DNA from: Pseudomonas sp. MH9.2
Lineage (GTDB): Bacteria; Pseudomonadota; Gammaproteobacteria; Pseudomonadales; Pseudomonadaceae
Assembly (NCBI RefSeq): GCF_034353875.1
Contig: NZ_CP133784.1
Location: 124,001-188,000 of the forward strand
Direction: 5' to 3'
DNA length: 64,000 bases
This document shows positions 118-22,224 of the stretch, one piece after another. A model generated the notes under the pieces. That model did no database searches. It worked only from the letters and a program-made list of their open reading frames with translations, and was not told the origin of the DNA. The position numbers and the translations under genes were made by a program. The number at the start of each line of letters is the position of its first letter. Position 1 is the first letter of the stretch.

Positions 118-726
118 TCATCGCCGTGCGCCTCCGCTGACAGGGCCCTTCACCGTCACGGGCTTGCGCGGGATGAAATTGATACAGACCCCGTCGAGCT
201 CTTCCAGCCGCAGTGGCTGGTGGCTGATTCCGCAGGTATAAGACGCCTGACTTTCCCGGTGGCAGCCGCAGCCTTGCAGATGTTGACACGAGGTACAGGT
301 GCCGAAGGGCGGTTTGCCGCGCTCTTGCGCCACCTGGCCGAGCATGCGCTGCAAGGTAGTGGCGAACTGGCTTTGGACACTGGGAGGCAGGGCCTCTGCG
401 GCACGGGCCAGGGATTCGAAGGGGTCGCTGGCAAGAATGCCCCAGGCTTGGTCGGTCAGTACCAGGCGGACACTGCGCTTGTCGCCTTCTGCGCGAATGC
501 GGCTCAGAAATCCGAGGGTTTCGAGGCTTTTGATGGTCTGTGATGCCGTACCGCGGGTCGTGCCATGGAACGCGGCGAAGGCCGATGGCGTTCGCGAGAA
601 GCGGTTGGCTTGGGCAAAGTACCTGAGCGCGGCCCACTGGGCTGCAGTGAGCCCCTCCGCGAGCCCCTCGCCAGTGGCGATGCGGCCCAAGTGAAATACC
701 AGCTCCGCAATCGCACGACTGTTCAT
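118..726 (-). CDS. MarR-family regulator with Cys-rich C-terminal tail (copy 1)
   Basis: A winged-helix MarR-type DNA-binding protein of 202 residues. Residues 1-130 look like a MarR dimer/wHTH core, with a helix-turn-helix region near HGTTRGTASQTIKSLETL. Unlike ordinary MarR proteins it has a tail with six cysteines (C144, C147, C153, C155, C165, C181), a pattern suited to binding an Fe-S cluster or zinc. It is divergent from an aconitase gene and highly similar to the regulator at 3001-3594. The start at 726 is chosen because an AAGGAG box lies 6 nt upstream; the in-frame ATG at 732 touches that box. Likely autoregulated through the element at 751-773. The metal-sensing role is inferred; the family assignment is firm. 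Confidence 0.85.
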   Translation of the reverse strand: MNSRAIAELVFHLGRIATGEGLAEGLTAAQWAALRYFAQANRFSRTPSAFAAFHGTTRGTASQTIKSLETLGFLSRIRAEGDKRSVRLVLTDQAWGILASDPFESLARAAEALPPSVQSQFATTLQRMLGQVAQERGKPPFGTCTSCQHLQGCGCHRESQASYTCGISHQPLRLEELDGVCINFIPRKPVTVKGPVSGGARR

Positions 727-750
727 GACCATCTCCTTTATCAGGCAAAT

Positions 751-773
751 ATAGTAGCGTCTAAAAACTATAT
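751..773. promoter_or_regulatory. Putative operator shared by both MarR promoters (site 1)
   Basis: A 23-bp AT-rich element starting ATAGTAGCGT and ending AAAACTATAT, with ATAGT/ACTAT inverted ends. It matches 3618-3640 at 21 of 23 positions. A second shared box, CGATACTAT, lies at 796-804, 23 nt from the end of the element in both promoters. A perfect 10-bp palindrome GTATCGATAC spans 792-801. It lies 25 nt upstream of the regulator start, in the divergent region toward aconitase. Confidence 0.6.
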
Positions 774-878
774 AGACAATAATGTAATTTCGTATCGATA
801 CTATTTTACCGCTCAGGAAGGTTGCGTAAGCCGGCTCAGGGCGAGTGCCGCGACTTTTTCGAACTTGGGAGAATGATC

Positions 879-19301: not shown

Positions 19302-19331
19302 ACCGCAGTCAATCCACGCAGCAAGGCCCTT

Positions 19332-20435
19332 ATGACTACTCAGGTAATTACCCTCCTTGACCTGAGCGCCGCCAGCCCAGTATCTGTGATTGCGCCGCCC
19401 ACGCCGGCCTCCGGCAGCACGCTCGCGGACACGCGCGGGCGGCTCTTGCGTGACCTGCGCATTTCGGTCACCGACCGTTGCAACTTCCGCTGCACCTATT
19501 GCATGCCCAAGTCTGTGTTCGACAAGGACTACCGTTTTTTGCCACAAGGCGAACTGTTGAGTTTCGATGAAATCACCCGCATGACGCGCCTGTTCGTCGC
19601 GCAGGGCGTCGAGAAAATTCGCCTCACCGGCGGCGAACCACTGCTGCGTAGAAACATCGAGGTGTTGATCGGGATGTTGAGCACGCTCAACACCCATGAC
19701 GGCAAGCCCTTGGACATAGCCCTCACCACCAATGGTTCGCTACTGGCCAACAAAGCCCAAGCGCTCAAGGCGGCGGGCTTGCGGCGCGTCACGGTGTCGC
19801 TCGATTCGCTCGATGAGACTATCTTCCGGGCCATGAACGACGTGGCTTTTCCGGTGAGCGATGTCTTAAATGGCATCGACGCTGCACACGCTGCGGGCTT
19901 TACGGCCATCAAGATCAATATGGTGGTGAAGAAGGGTGTCAACGATCAGGACGTCGTTGCGATGGCTCGGCACTTCAAGGGTAGCGGGCACATTGTGCGC
20001 TTTATCGAATTCATGGACGTGGGCTCCTGCAACGGCTGGCGCATGAACGATGTCGTGACCTCGGCCGATATCGTGCGCATGATCAACGCCGAGATGCCAC
20101 TCATCCCAGCGCAATCCAACTACCGTGGTGAAGTCGCTCAGCGCTGGGCGTATGCGGATGGCAGCGGCGAAATCGGTGTGATCTCCAGCGTGACGCAAGC
20201 CTTTTGCGCCACCTGCACGCGCGCCCGACTCTCTACCGATGGCAAGTTGTACACCTGCCTGTTCGCGCAGTCAGGGCATGATTTGCGCACGCTTATGCGT
20301 GCGGGTCAGAGCGACCAGCAAATCGCCGCTGCGATAGGTTTGATCTGGACCCCGCGTGAAGACGGCTACTCGCAAATTCGCACAGAGCAGACGGCGCGAA
20401 ACAAGAAAGTAGAGATGTCTTATATCGGCGGCTGA
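19332..20435 (+). CDS. moaA: GTP 3',8-cyclase MoaA
   Basis: A 367-residue radical SAM enzyme for the first step of molybdenum cofactor synthesis. The N-terminal [4Fe-4S] motif is CNFRCTYC (C50, C54, C57). The C-terminal cluster region [18 protein letters not shown] and the terminal GG dipeptide needed for activity are all present, so it is a bona fide MoaA. A 35-residue N-terminal extension is longer than usual. Two [4Fe-4S] clusters per chain make it an Fe-S client. No other moa gene lies nearby, which suggests an extra copy. Confidence 0.93.
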
Positions 20436-20544
20436 TTACACAAGCGCATTGGTCCAAACCAGGCTGCTAGGCACCCATGGGCTACTTATTGACCCAGCGC
20501 GGCATGCGTATATGTTCGCGAAAGCCACTTTAAGGATTTTCGAG

Positions 20545-22224
20545 ATGACTGAGACCACTGACAATATGCGCAAATATTCCTCCCTCGTGGTGGATGGCGT
20601 CGAGGCCGCCCCGGCGCGCGCCATGTTTCGTGCCGTCGGCTTCACCGACGAGGACTTCAAAAAGCCGCAGATTGGCATTGCCTCGACCTGGGCCAATGTC
20701 ACACCCTGCAACATGCACATCAACAAGCTCGCGCAAGAGGCCGAGAAAGGTGCCAATGCAGCGGGCGGCAAGGCCCTGATCTTCAATACCATCACCGTGT
20801 CGGATGGCATCGCCAACGGCACCGAGGGCATGAAGTATTCGCTGGTATCGCGTGAAGTCATCGCCGACTCCATCGAAACCGTGGTCGGCTGCGAAGGCTT
20901 CGACGGGCTCGTCGCCATTGGTGGCTGCGACAAGAACATGCCCGGTTGCCTGATCGGCATGGCGCGGCTGAACCGCCCGGCAATTTTCGTCTATGGCGGC
21001 ACCATCAAACCCGGCTCCGGTCACACCGATATTATCTCGGTGTTCGAGGCCGTAGGGCAGCATGCCAAGGGCGATCTCGACCTGATTCAGCTTAAGCAGA
21101 TCGAAGACACCGCCATCCCGGGCCCAGGCTCCTGCGGCGGCATGTACACCGCCAATACCATGGCCTCGGCCATCGAAGCCCTAGGCATGTCGCTGCCGGG
21201 CTCGTCGGCGCAGGACGCGATTTCCTCCGACAAGGCCTCGGACTGCTTCCGCGCCGGCCAGCAGGTGCTGGAACTGCTCGCTCGCGACATCAAGCCGCGC
21301 GACATCATGACGCGCAAAGCCTTCGAGAACGCCATCCGCGTCATCATCGCGCTGGCCGGTTCCACCAACGGCGTGCTGCACTTGTTGGCCATGGCCCATG
21401 CCGTGGATGTGCCACTGACCCTCGATGACTTCACTGAAATCGGCAAGACCACACCGGTGCTGGCCGACCTGCGTCCTTCTGGCCAGTACATGATGTCGGA
21501 GTTGGTCGCCATCGGTGGTATCCAGCCGCTGATGAAGCGCATGCTCGACGCCGGCCTGCTGCATGGCGACACGCTCACCGTCACCGGTAAGACCCTGGCC
21601 GAGAATCTCGCCAATGTCGCCGACTACCCTGCCGGTCAGGACATCATTCGGCCCTTCGACAACCCGATCAAGAAGGACTCGCACCTGGTCATCCTGCGCG
21701 GCAACCTCGCGCCGACCGGCTCAGTCGCCAAGATCACCGGCAAGGAAGGTCTGCGCTTTGAAGGTACTGCTCGTGTCTACCACGGCGAGGAAGCCGCGCT
21801 GGCCGGCATCCTTAATGGCGAAGTGGTCGCCGGCGATGTCATCGTAATCACTTACGAAGGCCCCAGGGGCGGTCCTGGCATGCGTGAAATGCTCTCGCCA
21901 ACCTCGGCAATCATGGGTAAGGGGCTGGGTAAGGACGTCGCACTCATCACCGATGGCCGCTTCTCCGGCGGTTCGCACGGTTTTGTGGTTGGCCACATCA
22001 CGCCGGAAGCCTTTGATGGCGGCCCGATTGCACTGATCGAGAACGGCGACAAGATCACCATCGATGCCGAAACCCGCGAGATCAGCGTAGGTGTCAGTGC
22101 TGCCGTGCTGGCCGAGCGCCGTGCGCGTTGGACACAACCGGCCCCGCTCTATACACGAGGTGTGCTGGCTAAGTACGCAAAGCTGGTGTCCAGCGCCGCG
22201 CAAGGAGCCGTTACCGATAAGTAG
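20545..22224 (+). CDS. ilvD: Dihydroxy-acid dehydratase, [2Fe-2S]-type
   Basis: A 559-residue IlvD/Edd-family enzyme for branched-chain amino acid synthesis. Three cysteines at C55 (NVTPCNMHI), C128 (GGCDKNMPGC) and C197 (GPGSCGGMYTANTMAS) have nearly the spacing of the three [2Fe-2S] ligands of plant DHAD. The sequence and length fit the oxygen-stable plant/actinobacterial type rather than the 616-residue oxygen-sensitive [4Fe-4S] E. coli type. The start at 20545 is chosen because homology begins at MTETTDNMRKYSS and AAGGATT lies upstream; the longer frame from 20449 is unsupported. Last gene of the island. Confidence 0.93.
   Translation: MTETTDNMRKYSSLVVDGVEAAPARAMFRAVGFTDEDFKKPQIGIASTWANVTPCNMHINKLAQEAEKGANAAGGKALIFNTITVSDGIANGTEGMKYSLVSREVIADSIETVVGCEGFDGLVAIGGCDKNMPGCLIGMARLNRPAIFVYGGTIKPGSGHTDIISVFEAVGQHAKGDLDLIQLKQIEDTAIPGPGSCGGMYTANTMASAIEALGMSLPGSSAQDAISSDKASDCFRAGQQVLELLARDIKPRDIMTRKAFENAIRVIIALAGSTNGVLHLLAMAHAVDVPLTLDDFTEIGKTTPVLADLRPSGQYMMSELVAIGGIQPLMKRMLDAGLLHGDTLTVTGKTLAENLANVADYPAGQDIIRPFDNPIKKDSHLVILRGNLAPTGSVAKITGKEGLRFEGTARVYHGEEAALAGILNGEVVAGDVIVITYEGPRGGPGMREMLSPTSAIMGKGLGKDVALITDGRFSGGSHGFVVGHITPEAFDGGPIALIENGDKITIDAETREISVGVSAAVLAERRARWTQPAPLYTRGVLAKYAKLVSSAAQGAVTDK

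Follow-up and report, generated by a model that had tools for sequence, protein, structure and literature searches.

Two apparently acquired iron-sulfur islands, each with assembly and client genes, on one Pseudomonas chromosome

The SUF system of Escherichia coli, controlled by IscR and OxyR, is a stress-type second factory for iron-sulfur (Fe-S) clusters beside ISC, and the suf operons of cyanobacteria and mycobacteria are controlled by SufR. Resistance to Fe-S poisons is usually seen as efflux, detoxification or repair. Here we describe a block of Fe-S genes (island 1) in a 64,000-nucleotide stretch, called the window, which covers positions 124001-188000 of the single-contig 5.58-Mb chromosome of Pseudomonas sp. 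MH9.2, together with a second island on the same contig.

Fe-S assembly clusters on the Polaromonas plasmids pE3SP1, pE5SP1 and pE10SP1 have already been published, and a role in reactive oxygen species (ROS) stress and cold is proposed in the sections covered (PMC6015842). According to the covered sections of another paper, most Pseudomonas species have ISC without SUF, and a horizontally acquired Terrabacteria-type SUF (SufBCDSTU) occurs in P. cavernae and P. frederiksbergensis (PMC11559095).

The MH9.2 chromosome carries two different, apparently acquired Fe-S islands, each combining a spare cluster factory with spare client enzymes. The second, SufR-like island, a cysteine quartet shared by the MarR-type regulators and operator pairs spaced by 33 bp are new in this analysis. 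For island 1 we favour, with moderate confidence, the reading that it is a horizontally acquired, derepressible module for Fe-S replacement. Literature searches, with most subscription papers outside their reach, found no prior account of the client set as a unit, of MarR proteins with the four cysteines (Cys4 MarR) or of the operators.

Gene content and extra copies

The second island is located at ~5.310-5.330 Mb (about 5309000-5330500; loci L011 and L012 of our numbering). Its order is SufR-like / iscA-sufBCDSU-bolA-grx-nfu1-rhodanese-mrp-nfu2-selO-sagB-bolA-acn-TPR-moaA-Rieske-type-lipA-erpA-globin, with sufC in a single frame. The regulator gene, divergent beside iscA-sufB, gives 135.2 bits with the SufR model TIGR02702, below the curated cut-off of 178.8, and is called SufR-like only. 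Proteins shared by the two islands are 63-88% identical (LipA 79%), and therefore a recent duplication is not the origin of the pair. A reverse transcriptase gene and an IS3-type transposase gene follow island 2, and the globin within it is of bacterial type.

The check for extra copies covered lipA, MoaA-type, IlvD/Edd-type, aconitase family and IscU genes. Three lipA genes are above cut-off, one per island and one in a DUF493-lipB-lipA cluster. There are five MoaA-type genes (PF06463), two of them in islands, and four IlvD/Edd-type genes, one of them in an island. The aconitase family (PF00330) is found at six loci, the two islands and four elsewhere, a count that may include LeuC-type proteins. 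IscU has one strong match apart from the two SufU genes. SufB is present in the genome only as the two island copies, and this confinement of the suf genes to the islands fits the expectation of a back-up model. An initial annotation of the window had read island 1 as such a back-up system, a reading that would have failed had these been the sole copies or had no other strain kept the gene order. It withstands both checks and is supported in part: other lipA, moaA, ilvD-type, aconitase-type and IscU genes exist in the genome, and the gene order is retained in other loci (see below). Its coordinates were incomplete, and the sufC of island 1 is broken.

Gene identities were assigned by Pfam and NCBIfam profile scans of the window and neighbouring proteins. 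The features of island 1 are as follows, in window positions unless the genome is named:

118..732, minus strand: marR1, Cys-rich MarR-type regulator (PF12802) with the four shared cysteines; it heads the minus-strand genes that run on beyond the upstream edge of the window
751..771: putative operator 1a, ATAGT-N11-ACTAT, an operator-like site in the marR1/acn promoter
784..804: putative operator 1b, marR1/acn promoter, 33 bp from 1a
879..2855, plus strand: acn, aconitate hydratase (NF005558, 921.6 bits against a cut-off of 612)
3001..3594, minus strand: marR2, paralogue of marR1, 83% identical (Pfam MarR domain)
3618..3638: putative operator 2a, an operator-like site in the marR2/iscA promoter
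3651..3671: putative operator 2b, marR2/iscA promoter, 33 bp from 2a
3731..4096, plus strand: iscA-type carrier (PF01521; best NCBIfam model IscA, under its cut-off)
4134..4532, plus strand: erpA-type carrier (ErpA model above cut-off)
4573..6009, plus strand: sufB (TIGR01980 / NF008773 above cut-off)
6006..6805, plus strand: sufC, split by a frameshift into 6006-6413 and 6272-6805 (Pfam and NCBIfam)
6802..8175, plus strand: sufD (PF01458 and PF19295)
8172..9431, plus strand: sufS, cysteine desulfurase (TIGR01979 above cut-off)
9431..9916, plus strand: sufU (TIGR01994, 138.8 bits against 92.5); open reading frame (ORF) open from 9299, start approximate from alignment to pE3SP1
9964..10206, plus strand: bolA (PF01722)
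10212..10544, plus strand: grxD, monothiol Grx4-type glutaredoxin (TIGR00365 above cut-off)
10873..11433, plus strand: nfu1 (PF08712 and PF01106); ORF open from 10687, start from alignment to pE3SP1
11622..12188, plus strand: folE, GTP cyclohydrolase I copy (TIGR00063 above cut-off)
12190..13218, plus strand: lipA, lipoyl synthase copy (TIGR00510 above cut-off)
13281..13604, plus strand: rhodanese (PF00581)
13653..14999, plus strand: mrp, Fe-S carrier NTPase (PF10609) with a C-terminal PF06155 (DUF971-type) domain
14986..15675, plus strand: nfu2, island-type Nfu protein (PF08712 and PF01106)
15672..17474, plus strand: selO-family protein (PF02696)
17471..19171, plus strand: sagB/ThcOx-type nitroreductase-fold dehydrogenase (PF00881; TIGR03605 above cut-off)
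19332..20435, plus strand: moaA copy (PF04055 and PF06463)
20449..22224, plus strand: ilvD-type dehydratase copy (PF00920 and PF24877)
genome 123669-124016, minus strand: ORF behind marR1, 53% to a BolA3 query
genome 121924-123672, minus strand: cysJ, upstream of the window
genome 120114-121955, minus strand: cysI, upstream of the window
upstream of the window, minus strand: AhpC/TSA-type ORF beside cysI, then another ORF, perhaps the remainder of the same gene (possibly a split peroxiredoxin)
upstream of the window, minus strand: CDGSH protein, behind marR1
upstream of the window, minus strand: thiC, truncated and in two ORFs, adjoining an ORF that matches part of an IS3-type transposase at 97% identity

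The gene set named in the initial annotation for 118..22224 is borne out by these profiles, and the 19 genes from iscA to ilvD do lie on a single strand with mostly small gaps. Using the longest-ORF starts, 17 of the 18 gaps are at most 160 bp and the largest is 188 bp; with a start at 10873, the one favoured by the alignment to pE3SP1, the gap before nfu1 becomes 328 bp. The aconitase start is probably 879 rather than 822, judging from the alignment to the pE3SP1 Acn. Of the full suf set with SufU that had been claimed, sufB, sufD, sufS and sufU are intact and sufC is not. The limits had been drawn too narrowly: the minus-strand genes behind marR1 extend island 1 ~6.7 kb upstream of the window, and the second island had been missed.

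SufS also scores 668.6 bits with an encapsulin-cargo cysteine desulfurase model, short of its cut-off of 800. Just past island 1, at window 22973-23476, there is an Xre/MbcA/ParS-type antitoxin gene, and divergent sulfatase and formylglycine-generating-enzyme-like genes are found at 39732-43650.

The selO-family protein has the Pfam SelO domain and stays under the NCBIfam SelO/YdiU cut-offs (207.6 against 850, 175.4 against 900 and 286 against 431). Its gene overlaps with both nfu2 and sagB. This overlap, together with the SagB/ThcOx family membership, could indicate specialised metabolism, in which SagB, radical S-adenosylmethionine (radical-SAM) and SelO-type enzymes, fed by the SUF genes, make or modify a compound. 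We regard this as highly improbable, as the radical-SAM proteins are LipA and MoaA, which are standard cofactor enzymes, and no YcaO cyclodehydratase or transporter was found among the island genes of the window, where small precursor peptides were not searched for.

Distribution, gene order and signs of mobility

An alignment of the island Nfu2 protein was scanned against the genomes of 84,980 species with two exact peptide patterns, by which relatives may be missed, and 43 loci were obtained. Nine of these (L065-L073, from Gemmatimonadota and archaea, with matches of ~80 residues at 46-58% identity) were excluded from the locus table, which holds 37 loci (34 from the scan and three plasmids). 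SufB is present in 16 of the 37, and eight or nine core genes stand in one order on one strand in all 16. LipA is found in 13 of these SufB-bearing loci; Mrp and SelO occur in 31 and 10 of the 37, respectively. Among the hosts are Polaromonas, Rhodoferax, Ramlibacter, Hydrogenophaga, Aquabacterium, Thiobacillus, Marinobacter, Moritella and Pseudomonas records, and metagenome-assembled genomes (MAGs) of other groups.

Twelve of the 15 LipA-bearing loci from the Nfu2 scan entered a check for lipA duplication. Another lipA match was found in all 12 genomes, with both copies above cut-off in ten; in L040 and L063, which are among the 12, one copy is cut by the contig end. A second lipA above cut-off is present in 3 of 56 relatives of the window genome. 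IscU exceeded its cut-off in 16 genomes out of a set of 20 with islands, and in 5 out of 13 more. We had the idea that hosts with a native SUF carry the island without sufBCD; this was rejected, since core-less loci are also found in ISC-bearing genomes (G399, G401, G416, G069, G284, G446) and the SufB pattern is mixed.

Within the genus, an island-type Nfu2 above 300 bits is found in 4 of the 398 Pseudomonas genomes searched, MH9.2 included; a looser tally of 297 of 398 consists mostly of C-terminal Nfu-type matches near 60-64 bits. The other three Pseudomonas/Pseudomonadaceae loci (MAGs L031, L032 and L044) have nfu2-selO without SUF genes alongside, with sagB in L044, and the L031 contig ends after selO. 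Their SelO is 98% identical to that of the window, which suggests that an nfu2-selO(-sagB) sub-module also moves alone.

On the Polaromonas plasmid pE3SP1, 20 island genes are found, with iscA to moaA in the same order and a few others interspersed, an agreement beyond chance. Of the two SUF modules on this plasmid, one is minimal and the other has MarR genes. The occurrence on three Polaromonas plasmids, the patchy presence in the genus and the recombination genes upstream speak for a mobile island. The latter lie 7-16 kb upstream of the window (L009:4301-12674), code for one tyrosine-recombinase-type protein and two large proteins of Integrase_2 type, and are a possible mobility module of the island.

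More distant relatives were found on other plasmids. Relatives of sagB (42-47% identity) occur on ten, of which two neighbourhoods were examined, a Methylococcus nif region and an unrelated P. aeruginosa plasmid region. In the former (L091, a plasmid of Methylococcus sp. EFPC2) the neighbours of a 45% SagB relative are nifHDK, IscX, a Rieske protein and a truncated haemoglobin, a setting which hints that SagB-type proteins may be connected with Fe-S or nitrogenase protection. Relatives of Nfu2 (37-39% identity) occur on three plasmids; two were examined, one being the locus of Octadecabacter arcticus pOA238_160 from the Arctic (L089:2802-12751). It comprises FdxA, SdhB, aconitase, Cys4 MarR, Mrp, Nfu2-DUF6522 and an RpoH-like sigma factor, an alphaproteobacterial counterpart. 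Furthermore, the P. hygromyciniae plasmid pSDM007, typed as conjugative (L004, ~7-17 kb), has an IlvD 93% identical to that of the window, at a place without an annotated gene, beside pyrC, TerC, RaiA and CysD; no strong operator-like site was found in this locus (best score 7.6).

Some of the genes are broken. When 20 pE3SP1 proteins were mapped onto island 1, sufC alone fell in two frames. A programmed frameshift was considered and rejected, as the 19 further sufC copies matched, one of them only 58% identical, each have an unbroken frame. The broken sufC and thiC, the possibly split peroxiredoxin and an insertion sequence (IS) insertion would be expected if the island were passenger or gene-dosage cargo, that is, accreted housekeeping genes that plasmid addiction retains, that play no coordinated part in stress and that are now decaying. 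The Polaromonas plasmids also bear toxin-antitoxin genes and IS elements, and accessory content varies between loci, which points the same way. We nevertheless find this account clearly unlikely: the core order is held throughout the SufB-bearing loci, the operator pair is found again in loci of Pseudomonas, Polaromonas, Marinobacter and MOLA814, two diverged islands are kept on one chromosome (likewise the two modules of pE3SP1), and the cargo unrelated to Fe-S is a minority.

Cys4 MarR regulators and operator-like sites

Four cysteines (CxxC ... C ... C) are common to all 13 MarR proteins compared. These are MarR1, MarR2 and 11 others: four from pE3SP1/pE10SP1, those of L033 and L061, and one each from Octadecabacter, Bradyrhizobium, Leisingera, Ruegeria and Agarilytica plasmids, the last five being 36-44% identical to MarR2. 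The set is a selection; plasmid records with a match numbered 77, and seven of them contributed. Two fragments were left out, from L043 (111 aa, without the Cys tail) and pE3SP1 (98 aa, with the Cys tail). As judged from sequence only, MarR1 and MarR2 have a winged-helix MarR domain and a putative operator pair in their own divergent promoter. Candidates for the cysteine centre are a thiol switch, a metal site or an Fe-S cluster.

The marR1/acn and marR2/iscA promoters each have two 21-bp sites near ATAGT-N11-ACTAT, with starts 33 bp apart. An operator matrix was built from seven sites (window, L042 and L043). Exact 33-bp pairs were found in five promoters outside the training (pE3SP1 twice, L033, L062 and pE10SP1), giving a total of nine promoters, two in the window and seven in six other loci, L042 and L043 among them. 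The nine are not independent, because pE3SP1 and pE10SP1 are close relatives. A single site is present before the third MarR genes of pE3SP1 and pE10SP1.

Across the window and the adjoining 20 kb upstream, scores are 21.7-25.0 for the four island sites and 9.8 for the next best, with a maximum of 13.2 in five shuffles. Using 60 Markov simulations per locus, the best site was above every simulation in L001, L033, L062, L089, L114 and L116, and was equalled in 1/60 for L118, 3/60 for L061, 11/60 for L117 and 41/60 for L115. High sites also occur in L002 (16.1) and L011 (12.8) without an adjoining MarR gene, and therefore the matrix is not perfectly specific. In the whole genome, the consensus with at most three mismatches gave 25 matches against 36 for a reversed control, and three of the four island sites are the sole places with at most two mismatches. 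This coarse search therefore gives no sign of a wider regulon.

The distant Cys4 MarR genes are found near FdxA and an RpoH gene in Bradyrhizobium, a MOSC protein and a VIT-type transporter in Leisingera, a redoxin and a tyrosine-coordinated haem protein in Ruegeria, and a protoglobin in Agarilytica. Together with those in Octadecabacter, these neighbours point to redox, metal or nitric oxide (NO) stress around iron.

Such surroundings can also be taken as signs of an oxidative-stress (ROS and ultraviolet, UV) module of cold habitats, in which extra Fe-S assembly proteins enlarge the pool when oxygen and UV are high. The Polaromonas plasmids have been interpreted in this way in the sections covered (PMC6015842); the AhpC/TSA-type ORF adjoining cysI is in line with it, and several named hosts look polar or glacial, going by their names or record sources alone. 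We consider it somewhat unlikely that this explains island 1. No catalase or superoxide dismutase is present among the island genes given a family, and the radical-SAM clients LipA, MoaA and ThiC are prominent, while the two radical-SAM enzymes tested are damaged by copper(I) and NO and resist H2O2 and superoxide, according to the covered sections of PMC9576991.

Proposed function and comparison with known systems

The reading of island 1 as a derepressible replacement module draws by analogy on other MarR repressors, and the divergent arrangement with paired sites suggests autorepression that a change at the cysteine centre relieves. Probably each Cys4 MarR protein occupies two 21-bp operators, about three helical turns apart, in its divergent promoter. 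It would repress its own gene, acn, the genes from iscA through suf to ilvD, and the minus-strand genes behind marR1 (cysJI, CDGSH and thiC), and damage to the cysteine centre would lift this repression. SufBCD with SufS and SufU would then build clusters, to be carried by IscA/ErpA, BolA-Grx, Nfu and Mrp to the enzymes encoded in the module. The recipients would be aconitase, lipoyl synthase, MoaA, the IlvD-type dehydratase, sulfite reductase, and ThiC where intact. In this way the tricarboxylic acid cycle and the supply of lipoate, molybdopterin, branched-chain amino acids, cysteine and thiamine could be kept up under poisoning of the native ISC and its clients. The presence of radical-SAM enzymes among the clients makes soft metals (copper, for example) or NO seem likelier triggers than peroxide alone. 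Literature searches for a link to cyanide and for one to P. frederiksbergensis gave no paper.

A number of findings weigh against this reading. The spare clients are ordinary Fe-S enzymes and not cluster-free isozymes, which leaves the resistance of a second copy to a cluster poison unexplained; every spare enzyme still needs a cluster, and therefore the benefit must be a private supply line, higher dosage or intrinsic robustness. The cargo includes FolE, which the initial annotation had listed with the clients and which we take not to be an Fe-S enzyme, and on pE3SP1 IlvBN, presumably likewise. With sufC frameshifted, thiC split and truncated and the peroxiredoxin possibly split, island 1 may be partly decayed, or mis-sequenced or mis-assembled.

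The regulatory part is affected as well. A MarR gene is present at only 2 of the 16 SufB-bearing loci, and thus the MarR arrangement is not general. The AlphaFold model of MarR2 has a mean pLDDT (predicted local distance difference test) of 57.1, below 50 from residue 134, and its Cys tail is unusable. The 33-bp spacing is absent at the more distant MarR loci: the sites are 55 bp apart before acn in Octadecabacter (L089), 56 bp in Agarilytica (L117) and 28 bp, with a weak partner, in Ruegeria (L116), a single clear site is found in L061 and Bradyrhizobium (L114), and the matrix scan gave none in Leisingera (L115). The best operator-like sites of L035, L046 and L048 are at chance level, and the fourth island site, having three mismatches, is no better than the genome background. 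Finally, the enzymes tested with copper(I) and NO did not include LipA, MoaA or ThiC in the sections covered (PMC9576991).

More tentatively, the Cys4 MarR proteins may be sensors of Fe-S, soft metals or NO that form a family not yet described, with an operator that is conserved and often paired, controlling travelling 'client replacement' regulons in alpha-, beta- and gammaproteobacteria; private SUF, carriers (nfu2-mrp) and clients would then form a parallel Fe-S metabolism switchable as a whole. The bacterium seems to have imported not only a second cluster factory but also the vulnerable enzymes themselves, in two diverged versions. If so, the islands would show, as an experiment of nature, which Fe-S enzymes are growth-limiting under poisoning and whether clusters go to dedicated clients. 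The MarR protein with its paired operators could also serve as a compact reporter of the stress, whichever it is, to which it responds.

Compared with known systems, island 1 is closest to the Polaromonas plasmid clusters, having the same families in the same core order, with 20 pE3SP1 proteins at 72-93% identity and the sufC pieces at 68% and 89%. Unlike these, the MH9.2 islands are chromosomal and in a Pseudomonas host. In the sections covered, PMC6015842 gives the assembly genes in one list and aconitase, lipoate synthase and further enzymes apart from them, and does not mention a client set, Cys4 MarR or operators. The SUF of P. cavernae and P. frederiksbergensis is similar in being an additional SUF with SufU in ISC-bearing Pseudomonas; only assembly genes are found in the covered part of that account (PMC11559095). 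In contrast to the SUF of E. coli, the islands have SufU and not SufE, regulators of the Cys4 MarR or SufR-like kind, and client enzymes encoded alongside. Island 2 resembles the SufR-controlled suf operons through its divergent SufR-like gene, which is below cut-off, whereas island 1 has MarR genes instead.

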